Shown here piece after piece: positions 9,366 to 25,837 of a stretch of 35,794 bases of DNA. The notes under the pieces were generated by a model. That model saw only the letters and a list, made by a program, of their open reading frames with translations. It made no database searches and was not told the DNA's origin. The stretch lies in NCBI GenBank assembly GCA_023301795.1, contig JALZVU010000154.1, positions 1-35,794 on the forward strand, written 5' to 3'. Within the stretch, counting starts at the first letter, position 1. Each line of letters begins with the position of its first letter. Source of the DNA: Granulosicoccus sp. (lineage in GTDB: Bacteria > Pseudomonadota > Gammaproteobacteria > Granulosicoccales > Granulosicoccaceae). A program made the position numbers and the translations under genes.

Positions 9366-10754
9366 TCATTGCAATACGTCACTCTTTATCAGTAACATTT
9401 TCTCTCGCGTCATTTCGTGCATCGAATACTGAATACCGCCCATTCCCACTCCAGACGCATCACGCCCTCCGAATGGCATCCAATCGACTCTGAACGCCGT
9501 GTGATCATTTACCATGACAGCAGTAGCATTCAATTTATTTGACGTGTCGAGAACATCATTCAGATCATTGGAATAGATAGCTGCCTGAAATGCAAAGGGA
9601 AGCGAATTTGCTCGGGCAATAGCATCGTTCTTGTCGGTATAGGAATAGACGCACACAACGGGTCCAAATATCTCTTTTTGTGACACCGTGGCTGTCTCAG
9701 CAGGGTTTAACAAAACCGTTGGTGGATAGCATGAGTCGGAAAGCTTCTCTCCACCACATAAGACCTTCGCACCACTCTCCCTTGCCTCGTCAACCCATTG
9801 AGCTACCCGATCTACCTCTCTTGGCAGAATCAGAGGGCCCACCTCGGTCTGGGGATCCAGAGGATCACCAACAACCAGATCACCGGCTTTAACCGCCAGT
9901 TTGGTGGCCAGTTCTTCACAGCTACTTTCGTGCACATACACTCGCTGAACTGATACACACACCTGTCCGGCATGATAAAAACCACCTTTTAACACGCTAT
10001 CTACCACTGCATCGATCGAAGCAGTTTGATCGACAATTACAGGGGCCGCCCCGCCATGCTCCAAAGCACATCGAGTACCCGGAGAGAGCTTTGATCGCAA
10101 CATCCACCCGACATTAGCTGATCCAATAAATGAGAAAAAATTCACCCGTTCATCAACCACCAGCTTTTCGGCATCTTCGTTTTCAACAACTAAAGCCTGG
10201 CACCACCCATCAGGCAGGCCAGCCTCTTTCAGTATTTCAACAAAACGCAAACACGACAACGGAGTCGTTTGAGCGGGCTTGATGATTACTGGGGCTCCTA
10301 CAGCAATGGCTGGCACCGTCTGATGCACAATTAGATTAAGTGGATGATTGAATGCACTGATCGACGAGACCACACCAATGGGTTCACGCTGGGTAAACGC
10401 CAGCCTGTTGGCTGACGATTTTGTATGACCCATGGGTATTTGCTCACCCTTGATCTGCGGGATATGCTCGATAGCCAACTTCAGGCCATTGATCGCTCTG
10501 AGCACTTCCACCTTAGAGTCTGCATACGGTTTGCCGCCCTCTTCTGCGGCAATATTCGTAAGCTCCTCTATCTGATCACCCATGATCTGAGCTGCTCGCT
10601 CGAGAATTTCAATACGCTCATAGGCCGGCAGCCATGCTGACCGATCTTGGGTCAACGCGTGAGCACGTGCCAACGCCTGCTCAACATCTGCAGCAGAATT
10701 GATAGCTACCTGCTTGATAAGCTGGCCGTTAAAAGGATTGTTAACATCTAGCAT
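9366..10754 (-). CDS. Aldehyde dehydrogenase family protein
   Basis: 462 residues, slightly short for the family. Key parts are visible: SISAFNHPLNLIVH with the oxyanion Asn, VIIKPAQTTP with the cofactor Lys, FIGSANVGWMLRS in the Rossmann region, the general base Glu in ALEHGGAAP (usually LELGG; His replaces Leu), and the nucleophile Cys in GQVCVSVQRVYV. It should oxidise an aldehyde with NAD(P). It follows the acetolactate-synthase-like gene by 18 bp, so the two are very likely co-translated and their substrates linked. The exact aldehyde is unknown. The EHGG variant marks a divergent subfamily rather than betaine-aldehyde or succinate-semialdehyde dehydrogenase. Confidence 0.88.
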   Translation of the reverse strand: MLDVNNPFNGQLIKQVAINSAADVEQALARAHALTQDRSAWLPAYERIEILERAAQIMGDQIEELTNIAAEEGGKPYADSKVEVLRAINGLKLAIEHIPQIKGEQIPMGHTKSSANRLAFTQREPIGVVSSISAFNHPLNLIVHQTVPAIAVGAPVIIKPAQTTPLSCLRFVEILKEAGLPDGWCQALVVENEDAEKLVVDERVNFFSFIGSANVGWMLRSKLSPGTRCALEHGGAAPVIVDQTASIDAVVDSVLKGGFYHAGQVCVSVQRVYVHESSCEELATKLAVKAGDLVVGDPLDPQTEVGPLILPREVDRVAQWVDEARESGAKVLCGGEKLSDSCYPPTVLLNPAETATVSQKEIFGPVVCVYSYTDKNDAIARANSLPFAFQAAIYSNDLNDVLDTSNKLNATAVMVNDHTAFRVDWMPFGGRDASGVGMGGIQYSMHEMTREKMLLIKSDVLQ

Positions 10755-10772: not shown

Positions 10773-12410
10773 TTAAACAATACAAGCACTTTCTTTTAAC
10801 AAGACATTGAGTATCGAGTGATTCAGGGAATAGTCGACAGGTAAATCAATGACGTGGACCCCTTTACCGTTAAGTGCCGTCTCCAGAACCTCGACAAAAT
10901 GCGCATGACTCTCAGCTCGGTGACCCGTAGCCCCAAAGCTGTTGGCGTACTGAACGAGATCCGGATTATTAAAGTCTAACCCGAAATTATCAAAGCCAAC
11001 ACCTTCCTGCTTCCACTTGATCATTCCGTAGGCGTTGTCAGTCAATATGATGACCACCAGATCCAGCCCCATACGAACAGCTGTTTCAAGCTCCTGAGAG
11101 TTCATCAAGAACCCACCATCACCGTTCACTGAAACCACCTTTTGCTCCGGATGCAACTGCTTTGCAGCCATGGCTGAAGGTAAGCCAGCTCCCATGGTCG
11201 CTAACGCGTTATCAAGCAATAGCGTGTTCGGCTCGTAGCATTCGTAATTGCGAGCAAACCATATTTTATAAACACCATTGTCAAGCGTCACGATATCTTT
11301 AGCATCAAGATGATCACGTAGAAGGCTGACCAGCGTTTGCGGCAGAATTGGAAAACGAGTGTCTTTAAAGTACTTGGTGACGTGAGAATTCACTTCATCA
11401 CGCACGCGCTCGAAGAAGCTGAAATCTTGATCAAGTTTCCCCAATTGCTCTGTAATGCGCGTAATTGAACTGGAAATATCACCAACAACGTTCAGTTGCG
11501 GGAAATAGACGTCATCAATATTGGCGGCATCAAAGTTGATATGAATAACATGTTTTCCACCTTTTTCCATAAAGAAAGGCGGTTTTTCAATGACATCATG
11601 GCCCACATTGATAATCAAATCGGATCGTTCTATCGCGCAGTGCAGGTAGTCGTCAGCAGATAACGCGGCAGTACCAATATAGCGCTCATGGCGCTCATCA
11701 ACGACACCCTTCCCCATTTGAGTATCGAAAAAAAACAATCCAGATTCATCAACCAGAGCTTTAAGTGCTTCGCTTGTCCGCTTGCGGTTTGCGCCGGCCC
11801 CAATGAGCAGTAACGGTAATTTGGCGGCCTTTATCATTTCAACGGCTTGGTCAATGGAAGGCTGACCTGCATCTGGACGTCGATGTCCTACGACATCAAA
11901 CACCGTTGCATCTGTTTCCTCTTCTGCAATATCCTCAGGCAACTCTATGTACGCGGCGCCTGGCCTCTCATCCATGGTCAAACGGAAAGCCTCGCGCACC
12001 ATGGACGGAATGTTGTTTCCATCAACAACCTGCTCTGAATATTTGGTAACAGGCTTCATCAAATTAACTACATCGACTATCTGAAAACGTCCCTGCTTAC
12101 TTTTACGAATAGGTTTTTGACCGCCTAGCATGATCATCGGCATACCACCTAGTTGTGCATAAGCTGCAGCTGTCACAAAGTTGGTAGCACCGGGCCCAAG
12201 TGTCGACAAACATACGCCAGGTTCTCCTGTCAGTCGACCGTACGTGGCCGCCATAAAACCTGCAGCCTGCTCATGGCGGGTCAATATCAACTGGATGGAT
12301 GAGCCTCTGAGAGAGTCCAGAAAATCAAGATTCTCTTCTCCAGGGATTCCGAAGATGTATTTGACACCTTCATTTTCGAGTGCTTTAACAAACAGATCTG
12401 AAGTTTTCAT
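10773..12410 (-). CDS. Acetolactate synthase-like ThDP enzyme
   Basis: 545 residues with the three-domain layout of thiamin-diphosphate enzymes: PYR domain with the cofactor-activating Glu in TRHEQAAGFMA (about 47), a middle domain (about 190-330), and the PP domain with VNGDGGFLMNSQELETA (GDG...N metal/ThDP motif, about 430-450). It resembles the large subunit of acetolactate synthases, especially the catabolic AlsS kind, which condenses two pyruvates. No small regulatory subunit gene is adjacent, which argues against branched-chain amino acid synthesis. It sits 27 bp after the glutamate-synthase-like gene and 18 bp before the aldehyde dehydrogenase. A different 2-oxoacid decarboxylase or carboligase specificity is quite possible, given these partners. 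Confidence 0.85.
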   Translation of the reverse strand: MKTSDLFVKALENEGVKYIFGIPGEENLDFLDSLRGSSIQLILTRHEQAAGFMAATYGRLTGEPGVCLSTLGPGATNFVTAAAYAQLGGMPMIMLGGQKPIRKSKQGRFQIVDVVNLMKPVTKYSEQVVDGNNIPSMVREAFRLTMDERPGAAYIELPEDIAEEETDATVFDVVGHRRPDAGQPSIDQAVEMIKAAKLPLLLIGAGANRKRTSEALKALVDESGLFFFDTQMGKGVVDERHERYIGTAALSADDYLHCAIERSDLIINVGHDVIEKPPFFMEKGGKHVIHINFDAANIDDVYFPQLNVVGDISSSITRITEQLGKLDQDFSFFERVRDEVNSHVTKYFKDTRFPILPQTLVSLLRDHLDAKDIVTLDNGVYKIWFARNYECYEPNTLLLDNALATMGAGLPSAMAAKQLHPEQKVVSVNGDGGFLMNSQELETAVRMGLDLVVIILTDNAYGMIKWKQEGVGFDNFGLDFNNPDLVQYANSFGATGHRAESHAHFVEVLETALNGKGVHVIDLPVDYSLNHSILNVLLKESACIV

Positions 12411-12437: not shown

Positions 12438-14024
12438 TTATACCCAACGATCTGCTTGAGCAGACTGCAAGTCATCTTTCCAGTCTTGCGGAGCGGTATT
12501 GTCGTCTAGAAGGCATCCGGTCTCCATGACTGGATATAACTGAGCGTAGGATTTCACCGTCGCGCCCTGTACCCGTCGGTTAATATGTTTAGCTTCTAAC
12601 TGATCCAAACTGTCGAGTCCCGCAGCTGCCAGAAGTTCACCCAAGTTGTCAATGGTTGCTTTGTGGAAGTTCGCTACTCGCGTAGCTTTGTCGCTAACGA
12701 CAAGACCTTTGGCACGTTCCGGGTTTTGCGTAGCGATACCAGTCGGACAATGATCTGTATTACAAGTGCGTGCTTGTATGCACCCCAGAGCCATCATCAT
12801 GCCGCGTGCTGAATTGGCCGTGTCAGCTCCAAGTGCGATCACTCGCAATAGGTGAAAGGCGCTAAATATTTTGCCAGAGGCAATTATCCTGAGCTGATCT
12901 CTAAGACCAAACCCGATGAGCGCCTGATTGACAAACATCAGCCCGTCACGCAGAGGTGTACCAATGGAATTGGTCATTTCAGTAGGCGCAGCACCTGTAC
13001 CACCCTCACCGCCATCAACCGTAATAAAGTCTGGCGTTTTACCTGTTTTTTTCATGGCTTTACAAATAGCGAGAAACTCATCTTTGCGACCAACACACAG
13101 CTTGAACCCTACCGGCTTGCCGCCGGAAAGTTCACGCAATTGTTCAACGAAATCGAGTAATTCCAGAGGCGTAGAAAACGCTGAGTGCGATGGAGGCGAA
13201 ACAACATCCTGACCCATTGGAACAAGCCTGATCTTTGAAATTTCTTCAGTCAGCTTGGCGGCCGGCAATATACCTCCGTGTCCGGGCTTTGCCCCTTGCG
13301 ACAACTTGATCTCGATCATTTTCACCGACTCAAGATTTGCAGATTTCTTGAACAGCTCAGGGCTGAATTTCCCTTCCTCGGTCCGACACCCGAAATAGCC
13401 CGTACCGATTTGCCAAACAATATCTCCACCTGCTTCCAGGTGATAAGGGCTCAGGCTACCTTCTCCAGTGTTGTGTGAGAATCCGCCAATCTTGGCACCC
13501 TTGTTCAAAGCCCTGATAGCGTTGCTGCTCAGTGACCCGTAGCTCATGGCTGAAATATTCAACGGTGATGCCATGTACGGTTGTGCACACCTGTCTCCGC
13601 CAAATTTGACACGTGGATCATGGTCGTGCGAATCCTTGGGTACCATTGAATGGTTCATCCATTCATACCCATCACGACTCACGTCAAAGATAGTGCCGAA
13701 CGGTCGTGTGTCACGAGCCCCTTTTGCACGTTGATAAACCAGTGAGCGAAATTCTCTCGGGATAGGCGTACCGTTTGTATCAGACTCAACGAAATACTGC
13801 TGCATTTCAGGCCTGACGGATTCGAGCAAATAGCGGAAACGACCAAAAACCGGATACAAGCGGCGGATGGTTTGCCTGGTTTGCATCATGTCAATGACAC
13901 CCAGGACAATGATTGGCGCAATCACTAGCAGAATCCAGATTGCGGGTGACCACACTATGGATAAACCTAATAATACAATAGGCGCGCTTATAGCGAATAT
14001 CGAAAAATACTGACGTATTGTCAT
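12438..14024 (-). CDS. FMN-dependent glutamate synthase-like protein, membrane anchored
   Basis: 528 residues. Two hydrophobic helices at about 8-45 are followed by the glutamate synthase central/FMN domain: SPLNISAMSYGSLS, NTGEGSLSPYHL, IEIKLSQGAKPGHGG, ITVDGGEGGTGAAP, and the [3Fe-4S] cysteines in CIQARTCNTDHCPTG (near residue 430). There is no N-terminal class II glutaminase domain and no GXGXG C-terminal domain, so on its own it cannot split glutamine. Stand-alone versions of this domain occur in archaeal-type GltB and in methylamine pathways (N-methylglutamate synthase subunit); many more are uncharacterised. It is the first gene of a run with the ThDP enzyme and the aldehyde dehydrogenase. 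The ATG at 14024 lacks a clear ribosome site. Confidence 0.87.
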   Translation of the reverse strand: MTIRQYFSIFAISAPIVLLGLSIVWSPAIWILLVIAPIIVLGVIDMMQTRQTIRRLYPVFGRFRYLLESVRPEMQQYFVESDTNGTPIPREFRSLVYQRAKGARDTRPFGTIFDVSRDGYEWMNHSMVPKDSHDHDPRVKFGGDRCAQPYMASPLNISAMSYGSLSSNAIRALNKGAKIGGFSHNTGEGSLSPYHLEAGGDIVWQIGTGYFGCRTEEGKFSPELFKKSANLESVKMIEIKLSQGAKPGHGGILPAAKLTEEISKIRLVPMGQDVVSPPSHSAFSTPLELLDFVEQLRELSGGKPVGFKLCVGRKDEFLAICKAMKKTGKTPDFITVDGGEGGTGAAPTEMTNSIGTPLRDGLMFVNQALIGFGLRDQLRIIASGKIFSAFHLLRVIALGADTANSARGMMMALGCIQARTCNTDHCPTGIATQNPERAKGLVVSDKATRVANFHKATIDNLGELLAAAGLDSLDQLEAKHINRRVQGATVKSYAQLYPVMETGCLLDDNTAPQDWKDDLQSAQADRWV

Positions 14025-14440
14025 GTTTGTGAACCGTTGTTGTTCAATGGGCGGCTAGAAGCGTGTTCGATTGCAAAGTGATCGCACACCCTCCTCTGTA
14101 ATACATTTTTATTCGAGCTTATTGATGGACAGCTGTGTGACGATGCGCAAGATTCACGTGCAAATCCTGTTAATTGAGTCGAGTGCAATAGTGCATCATT
14201 AAGCGCTCTACAGATGGCCGCTGTTAAATACCGCTGCGTAACGTCACCCAAGCAAAATATTAATCGACCCAACTCAGTTCTACAAGGTGTTATGGACATT
14301 TGTGTCAATTATTCATGGCTTCGTAGTCAATGGATACAATAGTACCCCTCACCAATGCTGCTGGATACTTCATAGATTACTCAGGTATTTGGCAGCAACC
14401 TAATGGTAATCACAGTTGTACTATGTAATTTTGACAAGAC
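14025..14440. other. Intergenic region: promoter side of the glutamate synthase-like operon
   Basis: 416 bp between the start of the glutamate-synthase-like gene and the end of the PGPGW-like gene, both on the minus strand. It must hold the promoter of the former and the end of the latter's transcript. A 95-codon frame (14021-14308) is rich in Ser/Cys/His with no hydrophobic or catalytic pattern and is judged spurious. No hairpin, repeat or operator stood out. Confidence 0.45.
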
Positions 14441-14731
14441 TCATACTCCTCCACCAGTTTCTGTGATTAACGGCAGTTCATCAGGACGGGTGGTGCGAAG
14501 TGCCCTACTGAAACGTTCACCCATCTTGTTCTCCAGCCATGTCATGGATCGATTGAGCCGATGGTACGTTGATCTGTTTTTCTTGATCAGATCCGTAGCC
14601 CTTTTACTGGCGCAGATAATCATGCCTACTCCTACAGTCATAGCCAGCGTACCTCCGGGAATAGGCGTCACCATAGAGAGCAACCCCACAACAAACAGGA
14701 CGACACCTGTAAAAATCATGATAAATCGCAT
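14441..14731 (-). CDS. Small PGPGW-like membrane protein
   Basis: 96 residues. Two hydrophobic segments (about 3-20 and 28-42) flank TPIPGGTLAM, which resembles the PGPGW turn of the 'putative transmembrane protein PGPGW' family but with PGG in place of PGPGW. The rest is a basic cytoplasmic tail (SKRATDLIKKNRSTYHRLNR). The ATG at 14731 has AGGTAG seven bases upstream. The start is 58 bp after the preceding gene of the molybdoflavoprotein operon, so it may be its last member. Function of the family is unknown to me. Confidence 0.68.
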   Translation of the reverse strand: MRFIMIFTGVVLFVVGLLSMVTPIPGGTLAMTVGVGMIICASKRATDLIKKNRSTYHRLNRSMTWLENKMGERFSRALRTTRPDELPLITETGGGV

Positions 14732-14789
14732 GTTAGCTACCTATTCTGGGGGACATTGAGAATGATCACAGAAGACTCGACTAGAAACA

Positions 14790-15527
14790 TCACATCAATC
14801 TCCTCAGCAATCCTATAGAAGACGTGTCAGTTGATTCGACAACTACTTGGTAATTATTAGATGCAACAAAATCTTCTAGCGAAGCATCATTGTTCGAACG
14901 AAACAAGAGAATTCCGTCCATGACATCGGGAATCGGTTTATCAGGTTGGTTCTGCGCAACAGAGACAATGCTGTGTGATTTCACACTGGAGAACATCAGC
15001 TCAATCCGCGTGCCGTCTGTCACCTGCTTCGCGCTGGTCAAGGTCTGCTCATTACCGCGAAAATGATGAACCAGGTAGCTGTACGAGTCCATTTTTACAT
15101 GTGCAAATGTAGCCACAGTGGTTGCCTTAGTCAGGCAGAACGTAAAATCGCTAACGGCTACTGTCCGAAACACGCTGACAACCTTGAAGTAGAGATTTTC
15201 AAGCATGTTACAAAAATTCTGTGCTGAGGGATATTTAACCACCAACAAAACACCTCGCGAATCATCCTGACTTCCGTAAAGCGTTTTCGTAAGTCTGCCC
15301 TTGAAAATGGGCTTGCCCCCCACGCCTGCTACTGATCGGCCAGCAATCAGGTTATAAAAATTGTAGACAAACATAGCTCGGGTGTTAAACCAGTTCACCG
15401 CATGCACCTCTTCGGCCCAAGGGATATGATGATGTGTCTTGCGAATTTCTACGTAGTGATCACCAAATATCTTTGCACGAATAGTCTCCGACACTGAGCC
15501 TGCTGACTGGCTTGTATTAATAGACAT
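14790..15527 (-). CDS. Uncharacterised protein, possible tandem DUF1330/EthD-like domains
   Basis: 245 residues, no signal peptide or membrane segment, so cytoplasmic. I do not recognise the whole protein. Residues about 85-130 (VLLVVKYPSAQNFCNML followed by an FRTVAVSD stretch) have the rhythm of a DUF1330 or EthD ferredoxin-like domain, where a strand, an aromatic helix and an HR-AxxDS-like end recur. A second, weaker copy seems to follow (GILLFRSNNDASLEDFVAS, about 195-215). The gene overlaps the end of the molybdoflavoprotein gene by 11 nt, so the two are translationally coupled and probably work on the same substrate. This could be a substrate-handling or chaperone partner; that is inference. 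Confidence 0.7.
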   Translation of the reverse strand: MSINTSQSAGSVSETIRAKIFGDHYVEIRKTHHHIPWAEEVHAVNWFNTRAMFVYNFYNLIAGRSVAGVGGKPIFKGRLTKTLYGSQDDSRGVLLVVKYPSAQNFCNMLENLYFKVVSVFRTVAVSDFTFCLTKATTVATFAHVKMDSYSYLVHHFRGNEQTLTSAKQVTDGTRIELMFSSVKSHSIVSVAQNQPDKPIPDVMDGILLFRSNNDASLEDFVASNNYQVVVESTDTSSIGLLRRLM

Positions 15528-18500
15528 CGCGTAAGTATCGTTTGTCGTCGACTAATTGCTTTATGTAGGCTATGGCTTCATCAGATGAATAGCGGCCTTC
15601 GCTTTGGACAATGAAGTGTAAAGTCTCATCAACATCTTTTGCCATTTTCTCAGCATCGCCACATACGTAGATAACGGCACCGTTCTGCAGCCACTGAAAA
15701 AACTCCGACGCATTTTCAAGCATTCGATGTTGCACGTAAAGTTTCTCGGCTTGATCACGAGAGAACGCAAGATCCAATCGGTTCAGCACGCCTTGTTCAA
15801 GCCAGCTACTGATCTCTTCCTCGTACAGAAAATCAGTGCTGGCGTGACGATCTCCAAAAAAAAGCCATGATTTGCCGGTCGCCTTACGCCACTGCCGTTC
15901 TTGCAGAAACCCTCGAAACGGTGCTATGCCCGTACCTGGCCCAATCATGACAATAGGTACATCGTCATCTGGCAATGAGAATGCGTTGTCAGGGCCAAAA
16001 TACACATTGAGGTTGTCGCCCACATCTAGCTGATCAGCGAGAAAGCCGGAAGCAACACCGTGATGTTCGCGTCCGTCCACCGTGTATCGAACCGCTCCCA
16101 CGGTTAAGTGAACCTCATTGGGATGAAGATTAATACTGGAGGAGATAGAGTAGCTTCTGGGTGCCAACCGTCCAAGCACGTTACACAGAGCCTCAACGGA
16201 CGTTATCACGCCAGGATTGGTTCTCAACAAGCCGAGGACATCCTTACCCCATAAGTAATCATTTAAGGCAGATTGATCATCACCACGCAGAATACTCTTT
16301 ACCGATTCGTCGTTAGTGTGCTCTGCAATGGCCGCCAATAAAGCGCGGGATGGGGTTCGAATCTCCAGATCCTGTAGTAGGCGTTTGAAAACAGTTTTAG
16401 TGCTATCACCCATTCGTTCGTCGGCATTGCTGTTCACTAGATTCAATAACTCTGACACAAGAGAGTGTCGATTTTCGGGTAGCACATTAATCGTGCCACC
16501 CACTTTGTAGTCCAGTGCCTCGTCAGCCAGTGACAAGCTAAAGTGATAGGTCTGCTTGGACGAGCCTTGCTTGGTCAAGCTGTATTTTTCAGTCAAAGGT
16601 ACCTGCAAGGGATTCTTACGGGTAAACCGCCTCGCGGCGGTCTGACTCGACAGTACGGTAGGGGTATTGATACTGGTTTGATCCCCGATGTCAGAAATCA
16701 TGGGCAGTACAACATCTATCCACTGTTCCGCAACATCATCGTCATTGACGTCACAGTCAGTTCTGTTCAGAATTCTAGTAGCGCCTACTTCACAAAGGCG
16801 CTTATCCCACAGCTTACCCGCCTCACAGAATGTAGCGTAAGTTCTGTCGCCAAAGGCTAACACTGAGTAGTGAGCACGATGCAACCGAGGCGAGTCTGCA
16901 GCACTGAAAGTATCCCACAGTGATTGGGCGTTATCGGGCATATCGCCTTCACCGTAGGTACTGCAAACTATTAATATCCGTTCTATGTCTAAAAGCTCTG
17001 TGGCATCCACATCGTCCATGGCAACCGCTTGTGCCACCATGCCATGATCGCCAGCGCGTTTCACTATGTCCTGTGCAACGAATTCGGCATTACCCGTACG
17101 CGAGCCATAAAGGACCACCAATGGTTTGCCATTGGCTGCCATAGCTTCCGGTGCATCACCCACCTTTTTTATGCTCACCTGCAAGCCTGAGAAAGCGGCA
17201 TTGCCTGTCAACGCATCCACGTGATTGTGATCAGTGATGTCATTGACACTAACACCCGGTTTCGCCTCTGCATACGGGATACGTGTGCCTGCTCGCGTAT
17301 GACCAAATCCGTGAGGTATGGAAATTACGCCGTGCATGAGTGTATCAGTGACTTCAGCAGGCAACGTTATAACACCAACGTCAGAACTGACAGCAATACT
17401 TTGCTGGTCTACGATAGATAATCTTCTTGCATCGTCGGTATTGATCATCGCAGTACAACGCACCTGCCCACTTGCACTCAGTTTTTTAACCTGATGCATC
17501 CAGGAATTATTGGTGCTCACGTGGCGTCTACCGATAAGACGAAACGGACGCTGTTGAGTGTGGCTAACGCTGGCTTGCACTGAATCTGCTTTGTGTTCTT
17601 CTATAAGCGTTTTCAGTGCGTTCACGAAAATATCAGGCGCAATGTGTATTTTTTTGTCGGACGTCAACATCCCCTCGGGCACCCTGGAGACCATGGGACC
17701 TAATCGAATGCCGTGTTTTGAAGCGATAACCTTGTTAAGCGTTAGCCCCGAGAGCCATCTTCTAGGGTGACTAAGCTTTCCATAGGCACCGAACATCAAA
17801 CCCCAGTTGATGATCCGACGCGGCGTTAGAAAACGATGCATAAAACCCCCGCCATTGGGAGACAATCGTTCAATAAGAACCTTGAGCACTTGCCAGTCGC
17901 GTGGGCGCTCATCGTTTGGCGGGAACAGAGCCTCTGAGTACTTAACGTTGTTCGACACCGATATCAAATTAAAGATCAAGTCGTAGTGTTCAATCTCCAG
18001 ACCACTTGGCGTTGGCAGAATAATATCTGCATGGCGTGTTGTCTCGTTAATATAGTTGTCGATAGAGAACATGAACTCGACATCGGGTAGCGTTGCATCA
18101 AGCCTGTGCCCACCGGGGCTGGACAGTACTGGATTACCGCACACGCTCATGAATGCTCGAACCTGCCCTGGCCCTTCAGTGGTAATTTCCTCAGTCATTG
18201 CGGATACCGGCAACTCACCATAAAACTCTGGCATTTTGCGCACTCGACTTGTCCACCGGCCAAATGGGCTAACTTTCGGCTTTCCTCTGGCCAGTTCGAT
18301 TGCCGGAGTTGGAAACATCATGCCGCCCGGCCTGTCAAAATTTCCCGACAACAAATTGATACTATTTATCAACCAGTGGCAAAGACCACCGTGTTTCTGT
18401 GTTGATAACCCCATCCGACCATAGAGAACAGCGCGATCCTGTTGTGCATAGTCTTTGACAAGGCTTTCAATCACTGACACTGGCACACCAGTGATTAACT

Positions 18501-19332
18501 CAGCTTGTTCGGGTGTCATCGCATCGGCTACCGCATCCATAGCCTCTATGCCGACGATATGGTCAGACAGGTGTTGGAGGTCAATGTAGTTATCGCGAAA
18601 AAGAATATGCGCAAAAGCTAGTAAGAAAAACACATCGGTACCGGGCCGGATGAAGTGATGCGCCGTGGCCAGCTTTGCTGTCTCCGTCAAACGCGGATCC
18701 AGGACAACAAACTGACCGCCCCGCTGTTCGATAGCTTTCAGACGCTCGCGAATGCCGGCCGAGGTCATGATGCTGCCATTACTGGCAATTGGGTTAGCAC
18801 CCATAAGGATCATGAAATCAGTGCGATCTACATCTGGCACTGGAATTCTGAACTCATGACCAAACATGAAATGCGCTGCAAAATGATGCGGCAGTTGATC
18901 CATGCTGGTTGCCGAAAAAACGTTTCTGGAACCGATCGCCGCGGTCAGGGTTTTTACAAACAACATCATGCCCATATTGTGCACGACAGGATTGCCCAGG
19001 TAGCTGGCAATCGAATCAGCACCGTGTTCTTTACGAATACGCTTAAGGTTGGTTTCTATCGTTGCATAAGCTTCATCCCAGGTAATCTCGACCCAGTCTT
19101 CGCCGACACGTTTTACAGGTTTGCGAAGGCGACTTGGATCAGTATGCAGCGCCGCCAAGGCCGGAGCCTTGGGGCACATACTGCCCTTACTGAATGGATC
19201 CTGCAGATCAGGCTTGATAACGATATCAACGCCGGCAGAAGCGGCAGACTCACGCTGCATGACTTGAATGCCACACATCGCTTCACACAGATTGCATACC
19301 CGATAATGAACTTGTGGTTCTATCGACATCAT
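15517..19332 (-). CDS. Molybdopterin oxidoreductase fused to CysJ-like NADPH flavoprotein reductase
   Basis: 1271 residues from the ATG at 19332, which overlaps the upstream stop as ATGA; a longer frame to 19425 has a non-conserved N terminus. Order of domains: [4Fe-4S] site C13-x2-C-x3-C-x32-C53 (CNLCEAMCG...SMCPKAP); DMSO-reductase-family molybdopterin domains (about 60-520; LILMGANP-like MILMGANPIAS, VVLDPRLTETA); dinucleotide-binding domain (about 600-710); flavodoxin (about 735-880; YGSRTGNAEFVAQDI); FAD domain (RSYSISSS); NADPH domain (IGPGTGIAPFRGFLQER, YVCGDAEKMAKDV) ending YLRDVY as in CysJ. Electrons should run NADPH-FAD-FMN-[4Fe-4S]-Mo. No twin-arginine signal is present, so it is cytoplasmic. 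Database names for such fusions mention nitrate reductase, but the substrate is not proven by sequence. The metal-ligand region reads SATSMDQLP, with no Cys. Confidence 0.92.
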   Translation of the reverse strand: MMSIEPQVHYRVCNLCEAMCGIQVMQRESAASAGVDIVIKPDLQDPFSKGSMCPKAPALAALHTDPSRLRKPVKRVGEDWVEITWDEAYATIETNLKRIRKEHGADSIASYLGNPVVHNMGMMLFVKTLTAAIGSRNVFSATSMDQLPHHFAAHFMFGHEFRIPVPDVDRTDFMILMGANPIASNGSIMTSAGIRERLKAIEQRGGQFVVLDPRLTETAKLATAHHFIRPGTDVFFLLAFAHILFRDNYIDLQHLSDHIVGIEAMDAVADAMTPEQAELITGVPVSVIESLVKDYAQQDRAVLYGRMGLSTQKHGGLCHWLINSINLLSGNFDRPGGMMFPTPAIELARGKPKVSPFGRWTSRVRKMPEFYGELPVSAMTEEITTEGPGQVRAFMSVCGNPVLSSPGGHRLDATLPDVEFMFSIDNYINETTRHADIILPTPSGLEIEHYDLIFNLISVSNNVKYSEALFPPNDERPRDWQVLKVLIERLSPNGGGFMHRFLTPRRIINWGLMFGAYGKLSHPRRWLSGLTLNKVIASKHGIRLGPMVSRVPEGMLTSDKKIHIAPDIFVNALKTLIEEHKADSVQASVSHTQQRPFRLIGRRHVSTNNSWMHQVKKLSASGQVRCTAMINTDDARRLSIVDQQSIAVSSDVGVITLPAEVTDTLMHGVISIPHGFGHTRAGTRIPYAEAKPGVSVNDITDHNHVDALTGNAAFSGLQVSIKKVGDAPEAMAANGKPLVVLYGSRTGNAEFVAQDIVKRAGDHGMVAQAVAMDDVDATELLDIERILIVCSTYGEGDMPDNAQSLWDTFSAADSPRLHRAHYSVLAFGDRTYATFCEAGKLWDKRLCEVGATRILNRTDCDVNDDDVAEQWIDVVLPMISDIGDQTSINTPTVLSSQTAARRFTRKNPLQVPLTEKYSLTKQGSSKQTYHFSLSLADEALDYKVGGTINVLPENRHSLVSELLNLVNSNADERMGDSTKTVFKRLLQDLEIRTPSRALLAAIAEHTNDESVKSILRGDDQSALNDYLWGKDVLGLLRTNPGVITSVEALCNVLGRLAPRSYSISSSINLHPNEVHLTVGAVRYTVDGREHHGVASGFLADQLDVGDNLNVYFGPDNAFSLPDDDVPIVMIGPGTGIAPFRGFLQERQWRKATGKSWLFFGDRHASTDFLYEEEISSWLEQGVLNRLDLAFSRDQAEKLYVQHRMLENASEFFQWLQNGAVIYVCGDAEKMAKDVDETLHFIVQSEGRYSSDEAIAYIKQLVDDKRYLRDVY

Positions 19333-19766
19333 GCTCGATTGTTGTGGATGTCGCACGCCCGCTTGTAAGGACCGATTAGAAACAATACAAGAATGGCAAT
19401 GGTCAACGCCAGGGAGACGTAGCACATTGGAATTGCGTTGCTGGACGCACCGCGTACGCTACCGCCGCTGGTCGTTGGACAAACACCGCCACCACCCAGA
19501 ATCTCTGCGGCTGAACCCATTAATGCGATAACAAAAGCGGTGCCCCAGCCTACGCAGAAAGAGTACGTTTTGTACTTATTGCCACGCACAAGCAGTGAAA
19601 TAATCATAAGGGAGTAAGCAACCAGCACCACATAGCAAATGGGTACGATACCAATTGCCGGGCAAACCTTGCCCGTGAAATTAGCATAACTCACATTCAC
19701 GGCACCCAGAAAACCGATGCCCAGCAGAATCCAAAGTACGATATCAATAATTTTACGTTGGTTCAT
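19329..19766 (-). CDS. Four-helix membrane protein with duplicated CP...PxCY motifs
   Basis: 145 residues, four hydrophobic helices. Two halves look related: KVCPAIGIVPICYVVLVAY (Cys35, Cys44) and GVCPTTSG...NAIPMCYVSLAL (Cys96, Cys115), each a Cys-Pro before a Pro-x-Cys-Tyr that starts a helix. I do not recognise the family by name. Paired cysteines at helix ends recall DsbB/VKOR-type thiol chemistry or metal binding, but CXXC is absent, so this is only a suggestion. The start overlaps the previous stop as ATGA and the end overlaps the molybdoflavoprotein ATG as ATGA, so the three genes are tightly coupled. The position suggests a membrane partner for the reductase or for the exported propeller protein. 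Confidence 0.78.
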   Translation of the reverse strand: MNQRKIIDIVLWILLGIGFLGAVNVSYANFTGKVCPAIGIVPICYVVLVAYSLMIISLLVRGNKYKTYSFCVGWGTAFVIALMGSAAEILGGGGVCPTTSGGSVRGASSNAIPMCYVSLALTIAILVLFLIGPYKRACDIHNNRA

Positions 19767-21400
19767 GATCCTGACTCGCCTGAGGTTTGCATAAGTTGAA
19801 CGGTTTCATTTCGAAAGCTGCCTTCGGTAATAAACGCAGCGCCGTCTAGTGCTGTTGCCGATACACTGGATGCTTGGCTGTCACCCAATCCGAATATCAG
19901 CATGTGAGATTGATCGGACAATAAGCCTTCACCAACAACAAACGTCTGGATCAACCTGGATCCATCGGCAAGCGTAACTGTAACGACGGTGCCTACCGAA
20001 CCGATGGTGTTGGGCAACTGCACTTTCAAAAAACCTTGATCTCCACCTTCACTCAGAAATACATTCTGTGGACCGAGTAGATTGATATGAACCAAGTCTG
20101 GATATCCGTCCTGATTGAAGTCGGCTGTAAGAGGTGCGATACCAAATTCGCGATTCTGCACACCTGCCTGATCACCCGCTTCAGAAAACTTACCTTGATC
20201 ATCCTGTAGCAAGAACCGGCCGTTTAGTCGCCACATCGGTAGCGCGTGTAGTGGCCAACCTGAATAATTTTCGGATACAACCAAATCATCACGACCGTCA
20301 AGATTGAAGTCTTCAAAGATTGCGCCCCATGAGAATTCGAAGGCAGCTACCTGTCGCTCCTCCGCAGAATCAACAAACGAGAAATCGCCTTGGTTTTCGA
20401 ATAATAACCACTCTGTGTGCAAGACTTGATCTTCTCGCAAATCCCCACGTACCAGTGCGTCAGGCACAGTTGATCCAACGTTAGAGAAGAAAAAATCAGG
20501 GAGGCTGTCGTTTTTCAGATCGGTTACAGCAATACCCATGGGGTACGAGAAATAATCACTGCTGGGGTTAGACATATTCTCAAAGGTCATATCACCATTG
20601 TTTTTCCAGGTGCGAACCGTCCCGGTGTCATGAGCGATCACAATGTCCTCGAGTCGGTCACCATCAACATCGATGAATACTGCTTGAAACGTGTTGTGCT
20701 GATATAGCATTCCAGCCTGCTCGGTGATGTTGTCGAACGTATCGTCACCGGTGTTGATGTATAGACCGCTTATACCTCCATATTCTTGGTTGAATATGGT
20801 TTCGCCTTCCACGTGCTTTCTGGCGATGTAACCGGACACGAACATATCGTACAACCCGTCCCTGTTAATATCAGCAACCGCAACAGACAGCGGTACGGTC
20901 TTTGGATCCAGGTTGAGGTCCAGCTTTTTAGCGGTAAATGTACTGTCAACATTAGTGTACAAAAACACACCTGATTGCCTTGTGATCAGCATGTCGTTAT
21001 CACCGTCGACATCAAGATCCAGTGATATCGCACTGAACGTTTTATCCGGGGTCTCTTTTGTCCATCCCGTATCCGTGGTGATGTCCTCGAAGGTGCCATT
21101 GTTGAATTTATAAAACGCATCCTGCTGATGAATTCCACCGCCTATAAACAGCTCTTCAACGCCGTCATTGTCAATGTCAACAATAGCGCCAGCTGTAAAC
21201 GGAAGTGTTTGGGTTTCATCGTAGGTGGGAACGAAATCAATCACCTGCTGCGTAAACGTAGGTATTGTCAGATTGTCCAGATTGACTGCATAACTGTTAG
21301 AGCGATCACTATGGCTCAGCCAGGTTAATCCAAGCATCAGGCTGATGATTAGCAGCGCTACAAAAAGGACGATGGATTTTAAGAGTTTGCCGATACTCAT
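19763..21400 (-). CDS. Exported FG-GAP/VCBS propeller with ASPIC/UnbV C terminus
   Basis: 545 residues. A hydrophobic stretch at about 8-27 is an uncleaved anchor or signal peptide, so the body is periplasmic or outside. Seven calcium-loop motifs of the DxDxDG kind recur: DIDNDGVEE, DVDGDNDM, DINRDGLYD, DVDGDRLED, DLKNDSLPD, DFNLDGRDD, DFNQDGYPD. They predict a seven-bladed propeller like integrin alpha or CRTAC1. The C terminus (VTLADGSRLIQTF...FGLGDSQASSVSA) matches the ASPIC/UnbV module. Such proteins bind ligands or surfaces; enzymatic activity is not known. The ATG at 21400 has AGGAG eight bases upstream and overlaps the previous stop as TAATG. Placement before a cytoplasmic molybdoenzyme is unusual. 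Confidence 0.9.
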   Translation of the reverse strand: MSIGKLLKSIVLFVALLIISLMLGLTWLSHSDRSNSYAVNLDNLTIPTFTQQVIDFVPTYDETQTLPFTAGAIVDIDNDGVEELFIGGGIHQQDAFYKFNNGTFEDITTDTGWTKETPDKTFSAISLDLDVDGDNDMLITRQSGVFLYTNVDSTFTAKKLDLNLDPKTVPLSVAVADINRDGLYDMFVSGYIARKHVEGETIFNQEYGGISGLYINTGDDTFDNITEQAGMLYQHNTFQAVFIDVDGDRLEDIVIAHDTGTVRTWKNNGDMTFENMSNPSSDYFSYPMGIAVTDLKNDSLPDFFFSNVGSTVPDALVRGDLREDQVLHTEWLLFENQGDFSFVDSAEERQVAAFEFSWGAIFEDFNLDGRDDLVVSENYSGWPLHALPMWRLNGRFLLQDDQGKFSEAGDQAGVQNREFGIAPLTADFNQDGYPDLVHINLLGPQNVFLSEGGDQGFLKVQLPNTIGSVGTVVTVTLADGSRLIQTFVVGEGLLSDQSHMLIFGLGDSQASSVSATALDGAAFITEGSFRNETVQLMQTSGESGS

Positions 21401-22071
21401 TAACTCAGCTCCTGCGAGTTAGCGCCGCTTGTCTGGGCTTTAACTGCAAAGACAAGAGATAACGCAAAAAAGATGAAAAACGCTACATTGAGCGCTATGG
21501 GCATGGTGTGTTTACCGACGGACGGCACAATGGCAAAGAGTATGAAATTAGCAACAATCAAAAGAATAGGATTAAATATCGCCATCCACTTCGGATAATG
21601 AGAACGTCCCGACAAGCACAGTTTGATTATGATGACTGATACCACCAGCGTGGTGATGCGAATGACTTGTAACAACGTCTCGTAGCGTAGGTCGTATAAT
21701 GCAATAAGAGCTTCTATATCAGCGGACGCTGGCAGTTGCATCAGGGCAGAGATGCTGGCTCGTGAACCTATCCACACCACGCCGACGATAAAACCGAAAG
21801 TACCGATGAGAAACGCTGAAAATGCCCAACGGTGGTTCGCAGGACGCAACATCTGGAAGATGTGATAACACCCTATCGGATACAAGGTTGCACCGAATAC
21901 ACCTAGGAAATGTCCAGCCGTCGAGCGAGAAGTCGAGATACCTTGCATGAAATCGTACCCCCCTTCAGTAAACCGAGCTTGCGCGTCATAGTGCAGCAGG
22001 TACTCACCCATACCCACGAGAGTGGCCGCAAGCAGCCCAATGAGCGCTGTGAATATCAGTTTATTTTGCAT
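21400..22071 (-). CDS. Six-helix membrane protein, DUF6796-like
   Basis: 223 residues with six hydrophobic helices (about 4-24, 52-75, 83-106, 130-152, 163-183, 190-212). The first loop reads GEYLLHYDAQARFTEGGYDF followed by GISTSRSTAGHFLG, which I associate with the family listed as DUF6796, although I cannot check it. Conserved Glu, His and Arg near the first two helices might form a polar site. First gene of the overlapping operon; its TAA overlaps the propeller ATG by one base. No function is known to me. The start has only a weak GTAAAG ahead of it. Confidence 0.78.
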   Translation of the reverse strand: MQNKLIFTALIGLLAATLVGMGEYLLHYDAQARFTEGGYDFMQGISTSRSTAGHFLGVFGATLYPIGCYHIFQMLRPANHRWAFSAFLIGTFGFIVGVVWIGSRASISALMQLPASADIEALIALYDLRYETLLQVIRITTLVVSVIIIKLCLSGRSHYPKWMAIFNPILLIVANFILFAIVPSVGKHTMPIALNVAFFIFFALSLVFAVKAQTSGANSQELS

Positions 22072-22713
22072 CTTTACAGTTTTTCTTCGTTTGATTCAAA
22101 AATGAGTCGATACAAGCAGCTGTAACTCAAAGACTCAGGACAAATGTAGTGTTCGTAATCTGGTAACACCTCTGGCTGATTATCCCAACAAATATTAAGC
22201 AATTTCACGATGAAATATTGCTGCCAAAATTAATACCAAGTAACTGATTACTATAAAATTTAAGTTAATCACTCCCTATCACTTACAAAACTCGAAGCCG
22301 CCAAGACAACACCTAGTGACACAAATTTGGAAGGGCATGCATAACAGCGATAATGGAACTACTAGAAATTTTTATGCTCACAGTCACGCGCAGCGAGACG
22401 CTAAGTTTGCCCCAGAACGGAACAGTGTGACAAAGTTCTTCCCTCGAACGTCCAAAATACGGTTAAATGTGCACCACCAGAGTGCGCAACGTTCTAACAT
22501 CTGAAACGTGTGGCGCCGACGAAAAGGGGTTACATAAAGTGTTTCAGTTAGTAAGATGCCTGCCATGCGCGATTGGTTACGCAAAGCATGAAAAAAACTC
22601 CTATATTCGCTGTATGACTCGTCATTTGGCCAATTGACGGTGGTAGCGGCACGACCAAACATGCACTTTAACGCTTGAAGTATCTTGACGTGAACCTCTG
22701 TATAGAACCTGCA
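22072..22713. other. Divergent intergenic region between the molybdoflavoprotein operon and the ECF sigma gene
   Basis: About 640 bp of low-GC sequence between the two divergent transcripts; it must hold both promoters. A weak hairpin, GCAATTTC / GAAATATTGC at about 22199-22221, is visible. A GGAAC (22419-22423), the usual ECF -35 core, is present, but no CGTC/TCGA -10 follows at 16-17 bp, so I do not call an ECF promoter. Frames of 60-117 codons here are not protein-like. Confidence 0.45.
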
Positions 22714-23262
22714 ATGCAATCCTGCGATAGAAGGCAATTAGTTATTGAGCACATCGCTTGGATGCTGGCGTTAGCAGAAAAAATACTCAATGACCATTGC
22801 CTGGCGCAAGACGCAGTACAAGAGTCATTTATAAATGCTTTTCGCTCCTACGACTCTCTTAAGGATCAATCAAAGCTGAAACCTTGGCTCAAACGGATCG
22901 TTGTAAATACCTCTTTGATGCAGCTCCGGCAGATTAAACGGCGACCAGAGCAGTCCATTGAAGAGAATCTACCCGACTTTGACAAAAACGGCTGTCGAAC
23001 AGAAGACACTTGGACGTACCTCATTGGCACCGAAAAAGTACTCGAAAATGAGCTACTTCGTTCGTCCCTACAGGATGCTTACGCTAGACTACCAGACGAC
23101 TATCGCGTAGTTTTACTGCTTAGAGATATAGAAGGCTACGACACTGCAGAAGTTGCATCGTTAGTGAATATATCCCCCGGCAATGTTAAAACACGCCTCC
23201 ACAGAGCCAGATCTGCGTTGAAAAAAATGCTCGAACCAATGCTTCGCGGAGACCGAGATTGA
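22714..23262 (+). CDS. ECF-type RNA polymerase sigma factor
   Basis: 182 residues from the ATG at 22714; the frame opens further upstream to a TTG at 22675, and neither has a clear ribosome site. Region 2 contains AQDAVQESFINAFRSYDSL and LKPWLKRIVVNTSL, the core-binding and -10 reading helices. Region 4 contains LPDDYRVVLLLRDIEGYDT and ISPGNVKTRLHRARSALKK, the helix-turn-helix that reads the -35 element. Length and lack of regions 1 and 3 place it in the extracytoplasmic-function group. It is followed, with a 4-nt overlap, by its likely anti-sigma factor. The target genes are unknown; the divergent molybdoflavoprotein operon is the nearest candidate. Confidence 0.92.
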   Translation: MQSCDRRQLVIEHIAWMLALAEKILNDHCLAQDAVQESFINAFRSYDSLKDQSKLKPWLKRIVVNTSLMQLRQIKRRPEQSIEENLPDFDKNGCRTEDTWTYLIGTEKVLENELLRSSLQDAYARLPDDYRVVLLLRDIEGYDTAEVASLVNISPGNVKTRLHRARSALKKMLEPMLRGDRD

Positions 23263-23567
23263 GAAACACGACACGATTGTCAAGGATGAGTAGATCGATC
23301 AAAGGTCAATTTCTCAAGCGCGTGTACGGTATGTTGACGTGCCGGGAGATAGAAGGCTTCATACTCGCCTATCTCGATGGCGAGCTCACAAGGAAACAAC
23401 TGACTACCTTCAAAATTCACTTACTAATCTGCAGAGAATGTCGTGAATATGTAGAAGCGTATCAACGCGCAGTTGACATCAACAAAGAAGTTCTACGCGC
23501 ATCCGACAAGACTTATCTGAAAGACATTCCTGATGACTTGATTGAAGCAATACTCAAATCAAAGTAG
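23259..23567 (+). CDS. Zinc-finger anti-sigma factor (zf-HC2)
   Basis: 102 residues from a TTG at 23259, chosen because GGAG (23248-23251) lies seven bases upstream and the start overlaps the sigma stop as TTGA. Internal ATGs at 23286 and 23331 are less well served. The zinc motif is complete: LTCREIEGFILAYLDGEL followed by KIHLLICRECREY (Cys, His-x3-Cys-x2-Cys), as in ZAS-domain anti-sigma factors that release their sigma on oxidation or zinc loss. There is no membrane helix after the motif, so it is a soluble cytoplasmic sensor rather than a transmembrane one. It should hold the preceding sigma factor inactive. A short basic N-terminal extension is unusual. Confidence 0.87.
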   Translation: MRNTTRLSRMSRSIKGQFLKRVYGMLTCREIEGFILAYLDGELTRKQLTTFKIHLLICRECREYVEAYQRAVDINKEVLRASDKTYLKDIPDDLIEAILKSK

Positions 23568-23638: not shown

Positions 23639-25837
23639 TTAATCAGTGTCAGGCTTGTCGTTTACCAAATCCGGTTGCACAAGAAACACCATCGTTGCCA
23701 ATGGCGGTAACGTGATTGACAGAGAATACGGGCGGCCGTGCGTGGTAACAGCCTCTGCTGTCACATCGCCACTACCTACACCACTCCCGCCGTAAGCGAT
23801 GCTGTCGCTGTTGAGTCGCTCAACATAACGACCAGCAAACGGTACACCTATGCGGTATTGCTCATGCACCACAGGCGTGAAGTTACAAACAACAACAACC
23901 AGCTCTTGTGTGGATTCAGCACGTCGAATAAACGCAATAACGCTTTGCTCGTTGTCTGTACAATCGATCCACTCGAATCCGGATGCATCGCAATCTCTCT
24001 CGTAGAGCGCCGGCGTGTCCTTGTATAGTTTATTTAGATCGCGGACCAGGCTCTGTACGCCTGCATGTCGAGAGTCGTCTAACTGGTCCCAGTCCAGCGC
24101 GCTGTGATGATTCCACTCACGACCTTGGCCAAACTCCCCACCCATGAAAAGCAGTTTCTTACCGGGATGGCCATACATGAATGCGTAATACAATCTCAGG
24201 TTGGCGAACTGTTGCCATGGATCGCCTGGCATGCGTGCCAGTATCGAACCCTTCCCGTGTACCACCTCATCGTGAGACAAAGGCAACACAAAGTTCTCTG
24301 TGAATGAATACAACAGACTAAACGTTATCTTGTCCTGATGAAAACTGCGATGAATGGAGTCTTCTTGTAAGAAGCTTAGCGTGTCGTGCATCCAGCCCAT
24401 ATTCCACTTGTAGGTAAACCCCAAGCCGCCCAGATACACTGGTCGGGAAACCATCGGCCAGGCGGTGGATTCTTCAGCCATAGTCATTCCACCGTGAGCA
24501 TGCACCACGGTGTTCATCTGCTTGAGAAATTCAACGACGCTAAGGTTCTCATTACCGCCATACTCGTTAGGGACCCACTCACCCTCCTCGCGCGAATAGT
24601 CCAGATAGAGCATCGATGCGACAGCGTCAACTCTGAGCACATCAATATGATATTCCTCAATCCAAAACAATGCGTTAGCGAGCAGGTAGTTGACCACCTC
24701 TTTTCGGCCATAGTTAAAGATCAATGTACCCCAATCACTATGCGCCCCCTGACGCGGGTCTGCATGCTCGTATAGGTGTGTACCATCGAAGTTTCCAAGC
24801 CCATGGGTGTCACGTGGGAAATGCGCAGGTACCCAATCAAGAATTACACCAATGCCCTCACGATGACAGCGATCTACAAATGCCTTGAATTCAAGCGGTG
24901 TCCCAAAGCGCCATGTCGGCGCATACATACCGATGGGCTGATATCCCCAGGAGCCATCAAAAGGATGTTCTGTAATGGGTAGCAGCTCGATATGGGTATA
25001 GCCCATCTGCTTTACATAAGTCACTAACTCATCAGCTAGCTCATCATAACTAAGCCAGCGTTGTTCGTCCCCACTGCGTCGCCATGAGCCTAGATGAACC
25101 TCATAGATCGACACCGGTGCGTCTAGTGCAGTTGCCTGAGCACGACCAGCTAACCAGCTATCGTCCTGCCAAACCATCGCCTTGTCGTCTGGAACCAGAG
25201 ATGCATTACCCGGTGGAGGCTCGAAGCTACGTCCAAACGGATCTGCCTTGAGTGGCAAAATTGATCCGTCGCTGCCCTTTAATTCAAACTTGTATAGATC
25301 ACCAGCAACAAGACCAGGTACGAAAATATCCCAGACGCCATTATCAGGATGCGATCTCATGACATGTCTTCGACCATCCCATGCATTGAATGGTCCGACA
25401 ACACTAACGCGTTGTGCATTAGGCGCCCATACTGCGAAGTGCGCACCCTTGACGTCTTCACACGTGGTGAGGCGAGCTCCCAGTTTGTCATAGAGCTTTA
25501 AATGAGTACCTTCACCCATCAAAAATCGATCTATCTCACCCAGTAGTGAGGAAAACCGATAAGGGTCGTCTAGCGTGTATGTCTCATTACCTTCATGTAT
25601 CCGCAGCAGGTAGTGTGTGCCTGTGGGTAGCGTCGCTTCAAACACTCCGGAATGTAAACGTGACATTTCAGCCAGCACCGCACCGCTTTTGTCCACGAGC
25701 ACAACCGCATCCGCCTGTGGTTGAAGCGTGCGAACCACCAGCTGCTTATTATCAGTATGAGGGCCTAGTACTGAAAAAGGATCATAGTAATCTCCTCGGG
25801 AAACGGCCTCCAGCGTATCTTTGTCAATCTCGGACAT
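23639..25837 (-). CDS. glgB: 1,4-alpha-glucan branching enzyme
   Basis: 732 residues from the ATG at 25837, which has AGGAA ten bases upstream; the frame extends to a TTG at 25903 but that adds an unconserved N terminus. N1-type carbohydrate module (GDYYDPFSVLGPH), CBM48 (HFAVWAPNAQRVSVVGPFN), then the GH13 barrel: GVILDWVPAHFP, nucleophile Asp in DVLRVDAVASMLYLDYS, acid Glu in MAEESTAWP, and LSHDEVVHGKGS. It moves chain segments to make alpha-1,6 branches in glycogen. It is co-directional with glgC, 130 bp downstream. No glgA, glgP or glgX lies in the window. Everything looks intact. Confidence 0.96.
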   Translation of the reverse strand: MSEIDKDTLEAVSRGDYYDPFSVLGPHTDNKQLVVRTLQPQADAVVLVDKSGAVLAEMSRLHSGVFEATLPTGTHYLLRIHEGNETYTLDDPYRFSSLLGEIDRFLMGEGTHLKLYDKLGARLTTCEDVKGAHFAVWAPNAQRVSVVGPFNAWDGRRHVMRSHPDNGVWDIFVPGLVAGDLYKFELKGSDGSILPLKADPFGRSFEPPPGNASLVPDDKAMVWQDDSWLAGRAQATALDAPVSIYEVHLGSWRRSGDEQRWLSYDELADELVTYVKQMGYTHIELLPITEHPFDGSWGYQPIGMYAPTWRFGTPLEFKAFVDRCHREGIGVILDWVPAHFPRDTHGLGNFDGTHLYEHADPRQGAHSDWGTLIFNYGRKEVVNYLLANALFWIEEYHIDVLRVDAVASMLYLDYSREEGEWVPNEYGGNENLSVVEFLKQMNTVVHAHGGMTMAEESTAWPMVSRPVYLGGLGFTYKWNMGWMHDTLSFLQEDSIHRSFHQDKITFSLLYSFTENFVLPLSHDEVVHGKGSILARMPGDPWQQFANLRLYYAFMYGHPGKKLLFMGGEFGQGREWNHHSALDWDQLDDSRHAGVQSLVRDLNKLYKDTPALYERDCDASGFEWIDCTDNEQSVIAFIRRAESTQELVVVVCNFTPVVHEQYRIGVPFAGRYVERLNSDSIAYGGSGVGSGDVTAEAVTTHGRPYSLSITLPPLATMVFLVQPDLVNDKPDTD

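Follow-up and report, generated by a model that had tools for sequence, protein, structure and literature searches.

In a 35,794-nt contig of a Granulosicoccus sp. (JALZVU010000154.1, assembly GCA_023301795.1; the whole stretch is called the window here), five overlapping minus-strand genes, g1 to g5, and a sixth, g6, lying 58 nt further on, belong to a gene set that is real, rare, conserved and, within the literature searches made, undescribed. The set is composed of two modules: an envelope module, A, made up of g1, g2 and g3, and an enzyme module, B, made up of g4, g5, a short-chain dehydrogenase/reductase (SDR) and often g6. We tentatively propose, as a possible account of these genes, a two-module redox system in which the reduction of an oxidised small molecule, driven by reduced nicotinamide adenine dinucleotide phosphate (NADPH), is coupled to an envelope partner, and which has probably spread horizontally. 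The reductase half of this account draws on domains and conservation, and the link between the modules on co-occurrence.

Recurrence of the gene set

The original prediction, made from the letters of the DNA alone, described successive overlaps of 1, 4, 4 and 11 nt, and the gene calls reproduce every one of them: TAATG at the g1/g2 junction, ATGA at both g2/g3 and g3/g4, and 11 nt at g4/g5. The start of g4 is taken as the ATG at 19332, with that at 19329 equally possible. A scan of 84,980 genomes with g4 as the sole query relies on short exact peptide matches, so that only close relatives are visible to it; it returned 13 further loci, giving 14 with the window, spread over three phyla. The carriers (Granulosicoccus and relatives, Woeseia and relatives, Hellea, Robiginitomaculum, Hyphomicrobiaceae, Parvularculaceae, Opitutales and Sulfurimonadaceae) are distantly related, mostly marine bacteria.

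In all 14 loci g5 follows g4 directly on the same strand, with gaps of -65 to +15 nt, the -65 hinging on an automatically chosen start. In 11 of the 14 the distance from g4 to the nearest of g1 to g3 is at most 6 kb, the gene order varying; no g1 to g3 gene was found near g4 in the remaining loci, L031, L032 and L038, and there the three are grouped elsewhere in the same genomes. The prediction that these genes would prove to be neighbours elsewhere is thus upheld: the neighbourhood is more than chance and recurs in other phyla. Homologues of g1, g2 and g3 are present in every genome with module B, g2 and g3 each in 13/13 of the other reductase genomes and g1 in 14/14, the copy in G416 being a fragment at a contig end. 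The proposed five-gene membership therefore stands in so far as g1 to g5 co-occur in all 14 reductase genomes, and falls short in that the SDR also belongs. The statement that no described pathway has such a set agrees with our literature searches, which gave nothing combining ASPIC, UnbV and molybdopterin, nothing on DUF6796, nothing on Granulosicoccus with molybdopterin and, for such fusions, only works on flavodoxin partners and nitrite reductases.

Table 1. Genes of the set and their neighbours in the window
Feature	Coordinates	Strand	Basis
g1, DUF6796 membrane protein, module A	21400..22071	-	Pfam, 54.2 bits
g2, membrane-anchored FG-GAP/ASPIC-UnbV propeller, module A	19763..21400	-	Pfam
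g3, four-helix membrane protein with two invariant cysteine pairs, module A	19329..19766	-	Hydropathy, homologue cysteines
g4, Mo-pterin/4Fe-4S domain fused to CysJ-type flavodoxin-FAD-NADPH reductase, module B	15517..19332	-	Domains, motifs, trees
g5, 245 aa, predicted tandem ABM/DUF1330-type fold, module B	14790..15527	-	Adjacency, predicted model, structure matches
g6, small PGPGW-like membrane protein, often with module B	14441..14731	-	tblastn
Glutamate-synthase-like FMN protein, downstream	12438..14024	-	Pfam Glu_synthase, 292.3 bits
Acetolactate synthase large subunit, downstream	10773..12410	-	NCBIfam PRK08322, 840.8 bits (cut-off 509)
Aldehyde dehydrogenase, downstream	9366..10754	-	Pfam Aldedh, 422.5 bits
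ECF sigma factor, divergent from g1, possible regulator	22675..23262	+	Pfam
Zinc-finger anti-sigma factor	23259..23567	+	Pfam zf-HC2, 32.2 bits

The enzyme module

The description of g4 as a fusion reductase is borne out by Pfam, which finds Molybdopterin (126.5 bits), Molydop_binding (62.6 bits), Flavodoxin_1, FAD_binding_1 and NAD_binding_1 domains in a single chain, and places its molybdenum (Mo) half in the bis-pterin Mo/tungsten (W) oxidoreductase superfamily. A 4Fe-4S motif of the form C-x2-C-x3-C-xn-C is present in all 14 members. For the C-terminal half we used motifs that we take to be those of CysJ-type diflavin enzymes, among them SRDQxxKxYVQ; the seven flavoprotein motifs, covering flavin mononucleotide (FMN), flavin adenine dinucleotide (FAD) and NADPH, are matched by all 11 fused members apart from one FMN pattern in L037. 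The g4 protein scores 558.1 bits against the CysJ equivalog TIGR01931 of NCBIfam, below its cut-off of 668.15. Hydropathy gives no transmembrane segment and no export signal is visible, so the enzyme is probably cytoplasmic.

The 14 Mo domains form one clade (support 100/100), beside standalone enzymes of Deinococcus, Gammaproteobacteria and Streptomyces, with several weak forks linking the clade to these. The Mo and flavoprotein trees were built from domains of more than 350 residues, and the former omits L005, L006 and L007 as duplicates of L116 to L118. At the column of the Mo ligand all 14 members have Asp and the NasA- and formate dehydrogenase-like rows have Cys; D145 of g4 stands opposite the cysteine that we take to be the Mo ligand in thiosulfate reductase and formate dehydrogenase, and on this alignment D145 probably binds Mo.

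For g5, the suggested tandem ferredoxin-like fold gains support from a predicted model with two ferredoxin-like halves (predicted local distance difference test score 88.5) and from structure matches. The window protein has no Pfam family above cut-off. Its first half matches RPA0582 in a profile search (E 1.1e-4), and DUF1330 is matched by nine of the 14 g5 members at E <=1 (best 4.4e-5), the window copy not being among them. As a whole the model matches sulfur oxygenase reductase (Z 14.6, 3.4 Å, 199 residues), and the closest folds include an anthrone oxidase-like protein, PenE, SnoaB, other small-molecule enzymes and ABM-type proteins, identity to the full-length structure matches being 6-10%. 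A tandem ABM/DUF1330 fold is accordingly the predicted assignment. Invariant residues in the 14-row alignment include N45, W46, N59, K76, R91 and R121, and neither His nor Cys is among the invariant positions, which gives no sign of metal or haem binding and is more in keeping with substrate binding. Chlorite dismutase-like haem proteins have a conserved proximal histidine; such an identity for g5 was considered and rejected, no histidine being invariant in the 14 rows. The protein is rare, a profile search finding it in one of 369 sampled Gammaproteobacteria, namely the window's own genome, and it was not found in the 17 genomes that have module A and no reductase, in a search that had no positive control.

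The SDR emerged from clustering the open reading frames near g5. Each of the 14 reductase genomes encodes it; ten of the loci have it no more than 2 kb from g4, and the distance is 6.0 kb in L032 and 8.3 kb in L031. At E 1e-80 it is found in four of 143 relatives, the same four that have full-length g4 and g5; a naive hypergeometric estimate for this overlap, which ignores kinship, is 6e-8. The SDR profile gave no match in the PDB at E 1e-35, a strict limit. In the window's genome the SDR lies on a separate contig, C59. An SDR-like gene in the window itself (5009-5788) had first been clustered with the set's SDR and was rejected, the true copy being that on C59. The G415 contig runs from a g6-like gene to the SDR and then to glutamate-synthase-like, acetolactate-synthase and aldehyde-dehydrogenase genes. 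At the place of the SDR in that contig the window has 416 nt (14025-14440) with no convincing gene, and a search for an SDR remnant between g6 and the glutamate-synthase-like gene gave only a 17-residue match (E 0.85). In five genomes a membrane-like protein of 113-118 aa also comes after the SDR; clustering showed four copies (L031, 1636-1977; L032, 3925-4266; L038, 9888-10244; L043, 9338-9694) and inspection by eye the fifth (L138, 9408-9755). The protein may be a further member of the set, and the L031 copy has no Pfam match.

By tblastn g6 is found in the window and in seven of the 13 other loci, with one more recognised by eye in L140. Its spacing of 58 nt is as originally described, and its likeness to PGPGW falls short of that family's Pfam cut-off (16.5 against 23.3 bits).

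The envelope module

The g1 protein matches DUF6796 (54.2 bits against a cut-off of 26.9), and a simple hydropathy scan gives it five strong helices rather than the six originally counted. The seven-repeat propeller proposed for g2 was recovered: the protein has FG-GAP_3 in seven stretches (FG-GAP, 111.8 against 26.9 bits), UnbV_ASPIC above cut-off (28.4 against 23.4 bits) and, by hydropathy, one N-terminal anchor.

The same kind of scan finds in g3 the four helices that had been described. Two cysteine pairs, C35/C44 and C96/C115, with prolines in each, are invariant in 26/26 homologues, and from hydropathy and loop charges both are predicted to lie in periplasmic loops. On this predicted topology g3 has the layout of DsbB and VKOR: four helices with a conserved cysteine pair in each exported loop. 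No Pfam family scores above cut-off, a sequence search of the PDB gave no match at E <=10, and Foldseek found nothing significant. Its best structure match is VKOR (Z 11.2, 3.0 Å, 124 residues); unrelated helical bundles reach 10.5, and an 11-row alignment has no conserved CXXC. As the match is no higher than helical bundles give and CXXC is missing, we do not claim membership of the DsbB/VKOR group.

Some further genes were seen around these loci. A thioredoxin-fold CPGC protein and a rhodanese stand beside module A in Granulosicoccus (L105, 6603-7211 and 7337-7786; L106, 11898-12506), the CPGC protein in L105 having a twin-arginine translocation signal. In Hellea (L038, 3523-3981) a homologue in which no signal can be seen is encoded 0.5 kb upstream of the reductase. 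The Hellea genome G425 has a further set of g1, g2 and g3, diverged and located elsewhere than the reductase locus (L114, 9179-11777).

Neighbouring genes

The genes on either side of the set formed no part of the original prediction. The glutamate-synthase-like gene that follows g6 in the window also adjoins the cluster in L037, L039 and L140. Acetolactate-synthase and aldehyde-dehydrogenase genes follow the g1-g3 trio in L103 and L108 in the absence of module B, and both are also on L140. As the trio is followed by the same genes there, module B looks inserted between trio and downstream genes in the window, unless it has been lost elsewhere.

On its other side, g1 faces an extracytoplasmic function (ECF) sigma factor and its zinc-finger anti-sigma factor. 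An ECF sigma gene lies within 5 kb of module A in five of 28 g2 loci (the window, L039, L035, L112 and L141), and L113 has a further one about 8 kb away. In L112, from Hellea, a thiamine pyrophosphate enzyme (13168-15144) adjoins the sigma factor and module A, and its N-terminal stretch looks Rieske-like by eye. After the sigma pair in the window, on the opposite strand, come genes (23639-27242) that look by eye like glycogen branching enzyme and glucose-1-phosphate adenylyltransferase.

A proposed redox system and its alternatives

In the system that we tentatively propose, electrons would pass within g4 from NADPH through FAD, FMN and the 4Fe-4S cluster to a bis-pterin Mo (or W) centre whose ligand is probably Asp, and this centre would reduce a cytoplasmic small molecule in oxidised form, probably an organic one. 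As the constant partner of g4, g5 would probably bind, deliver or rearrange the substrate or product, and the SDR would carry out a second carbonyl/alcohol step. In the envelope, the anchored propeller, the DUF6796 membrane protein and the four-helix g3 would assist module B at the membrane, where they would deal with the compound or with its redox effects, with g3 probably shuttling electrons or disulfides through its two exported cysteine pairs in a somewhat DsbB-like manner. The ECF sigma/anti-sigma pair may switch the system in some hosts. A substrate or signal may also cross the envelope, as the original prediction had it. A bolder form of it is a trans-envelope pathway in which an extracytoplasmic compound or disulfide is reduced by cytoplasmic NADPH through the Asp-Mo enzyme and a split, DsbI-like thiol/propeller device. 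We regard that form as unlikely; if it held, the trio of DUF6796, ASPIC and CPxPxC proteins, and this Mo branch with it, would for the first time be assigned a role.

Several findings weigh against a single system. Three of the 14 reductases (L040, L041 and L042) consist of the Mo half only. In these g5 comes straight after the Mo domain, so a contig end is not the reason for the short chain, and given that they fall inside the Mo clade with moderate support, the flavoprotein half has probably been lost and electrons must have another donor. The label of a self-contained NADPH-driven reductase is therefore too strong for the family. Module A occurs without module B in at least 17 genomes: g3 is found in 20 of the 143 relatives, all in the window's family, four with the reductase and 16 without it (15 of these 16 also having g2), and the alphaproteobacterium G432 has g2-g1-g3 with no module B. 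Further afield, in favour of a link, g3 is rare. Among 289 genomes of G417's class, the Alphaproteobacteria, it is present in two, including G417 itself, a reductase carrier; among 107 of G418's family, the Woeseiaceae, it is present in four, three of them known reductase carriers, with G765 as the fourth. In G413, G414 and G420 module A lies apart from the reductase. Protein distances correlate more weakly between the modules (0.51-0.68) than within them (0.66-0.95; r=0.91 for g5 and 0.81 for the SDR against g4, the Mo part being used with g5), in a test that covered the set minus the SDR of G000 (the window's genome) and G415, the G416 and G422 copies of g1 and, for the three unfused members, the flavoprotein half. 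Module A may thus be an older system merely accompanied by B. The three Woeseiaceae form one clade, as do the four Granulosicoccaceae, so there are fewer independent events than genomes. To these can be added the missing CXXC of g3, its match to VKOR, which is within the range of helical bundles, and the lack of a shared promoter motif upstream of the sigma and module A genes, the best pairs occurring in four of ten regions, as in 4/30 shuffled sets.

Much of this would be expected if there were two independent systems, an older envelope device and an unrelated catabolic or detoxifying set, that meet through a mobile pool or a marine niche, and the L103 and L108 loci, with the trio leading into acetolactate-synthase and aldehyde-dehydrogenase genes, would fit that too. 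We nevertheless find this somewhat unlikely, since all 14 module B genomes, across three phyla, hold all three of the rare A genes, and since a shared niche alone would not put an A gene within 6 kb of g4 in 11 of them. The prediction of one system is accordingly retained in part: its genes are neighbours elsewhere, and they fall into two separable modules, with g3 in 16 relatives that have no module B, 15 of them with g2, and A apart from B in three genomes.

The likeness of the g5 fold to the anthrone oxidase-like protein, PenE and SnoaB, taken with the constancy of the SDR, raises a biosynthetic or tailoring pathway, in which g4, g5 and the SDR modify an aromatic, polyketide-like or lipid compound that module A exports or displays; with no synthase or ligase gene recurring in the clustered loci and no recognised transporter in module A, we consider this decidedly unlikely. 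A cytoplasmic reductase of oxyanions or of S- or N-oxides (nitrate, chlorate, sulfoxide and the like), to which the other genes would be accessory, is brought to mind by a known fused enzyme of the same architecture that is annotated as a nitrate/sulfite reductase and stands beside nirBD. Identity with nitrate reductase was rejected for g4 on the trees, in which both halves branch apart, on the Asp in place of the Cys of nitrate enzymes, and on a NasC score of 170.7 bits against a cut-off of 1100; oxyanions, moreover, would need neither an SDR nor an ABM-fold partner, and we judge this reading very unlikely. More improbable still is a sensor, with g3 as a metal-binding or structural disulfide protein, the propeller reading the outside and the sigma pair relaying the signal to induce module B where present. 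The missing CXXC and the sigma genes near module A are in keeping with it; at the other g2 loci no sigma gene was seen, and the promoter search gave no common motif.

Of these accounts we prefer the coupled two-module system. The set offers a handle on Asp-branch Mo enzymes, DUF6796, the CPxPxC four-helix protein and bacterial ASPIC propellers, and given that it is rare, present in three phyla and kept together, a single knock-out or purified enzyme would be informative.

Comparison with known systems

The closest Mo-domain relatives outside the cluster are the standalone 'molybdopterin-dependent oxidoreductases' of Deinococcus, Streptomyces and some Gammaproteobacteria, which share the Asp column and, unlike g4, are unfused. 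Identity is 36-47% in the listed Deinococcus and Streptomyces plasmid rows and 41-46% in G064, G057 and G054. The stretches read around them hold no annotated SDR, propeller or DUF6796, no family of the cluster recurs around L116 to L118, and the annotations examined give no function.

The nearest match in architecture is the fused 'bifunctional nitrate reductase/sulfite reductase flavoprotein' of Burkholderiaceae, which like g4 joins 4Fe-4S Mo, flavodoxin, FAD and NADPH parts in one chain; seven plasmid-collection records cover 94-99% of g4 at about 30% identity. Its Mo half scores 86-95 bits against the window query, compared with 577-689 for the standalone Deinococcus and Streptomyces enzymes, and it has Cys at the ligand column where g4 has Asp. 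In L123 it adjoins nirBD, whereas g4 stands with g5 and module A. As it lies on other branches for both halves, we take the fusions to be independent, and the sequence relationships indicate two or more separate joinings of a CysJ-type flavoprotein to a Mo enzyme, one of them involving a branch that does not resemble nitrate reductase. In g5 the fold is like that of the DUF1330/ABM superfamily (RPA0582, the anthrone oxidase-like protein, sulfur oxygenase reductase), at the low identity given above.

For the envelope module the comparison is with thiol oxidoreductases of the membrane. DsbB is a four-helix protein whose two exported loops each carry a pair of cysteines, according to PMC4460558, and DsbB and VKOR have a common structure without sequence identity, according to PMC11208910. 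In the epsilonproteobacterial DsbI a DsbB-like domain is linked to a periplasmic propeller; according to PMC4460558 the protein has five helices and a CXXC with no second cysteine pair. With DsbB, g3 shares, on its predicted topology, the four helices and two exported cysteine pairs, though without CXXC. The thiol domain and propeller that DsbI combines in one protein are here encoded by separate genes, g3, with four helices and two pairs, and g2, an FG-GAP/ASPIC propeller.

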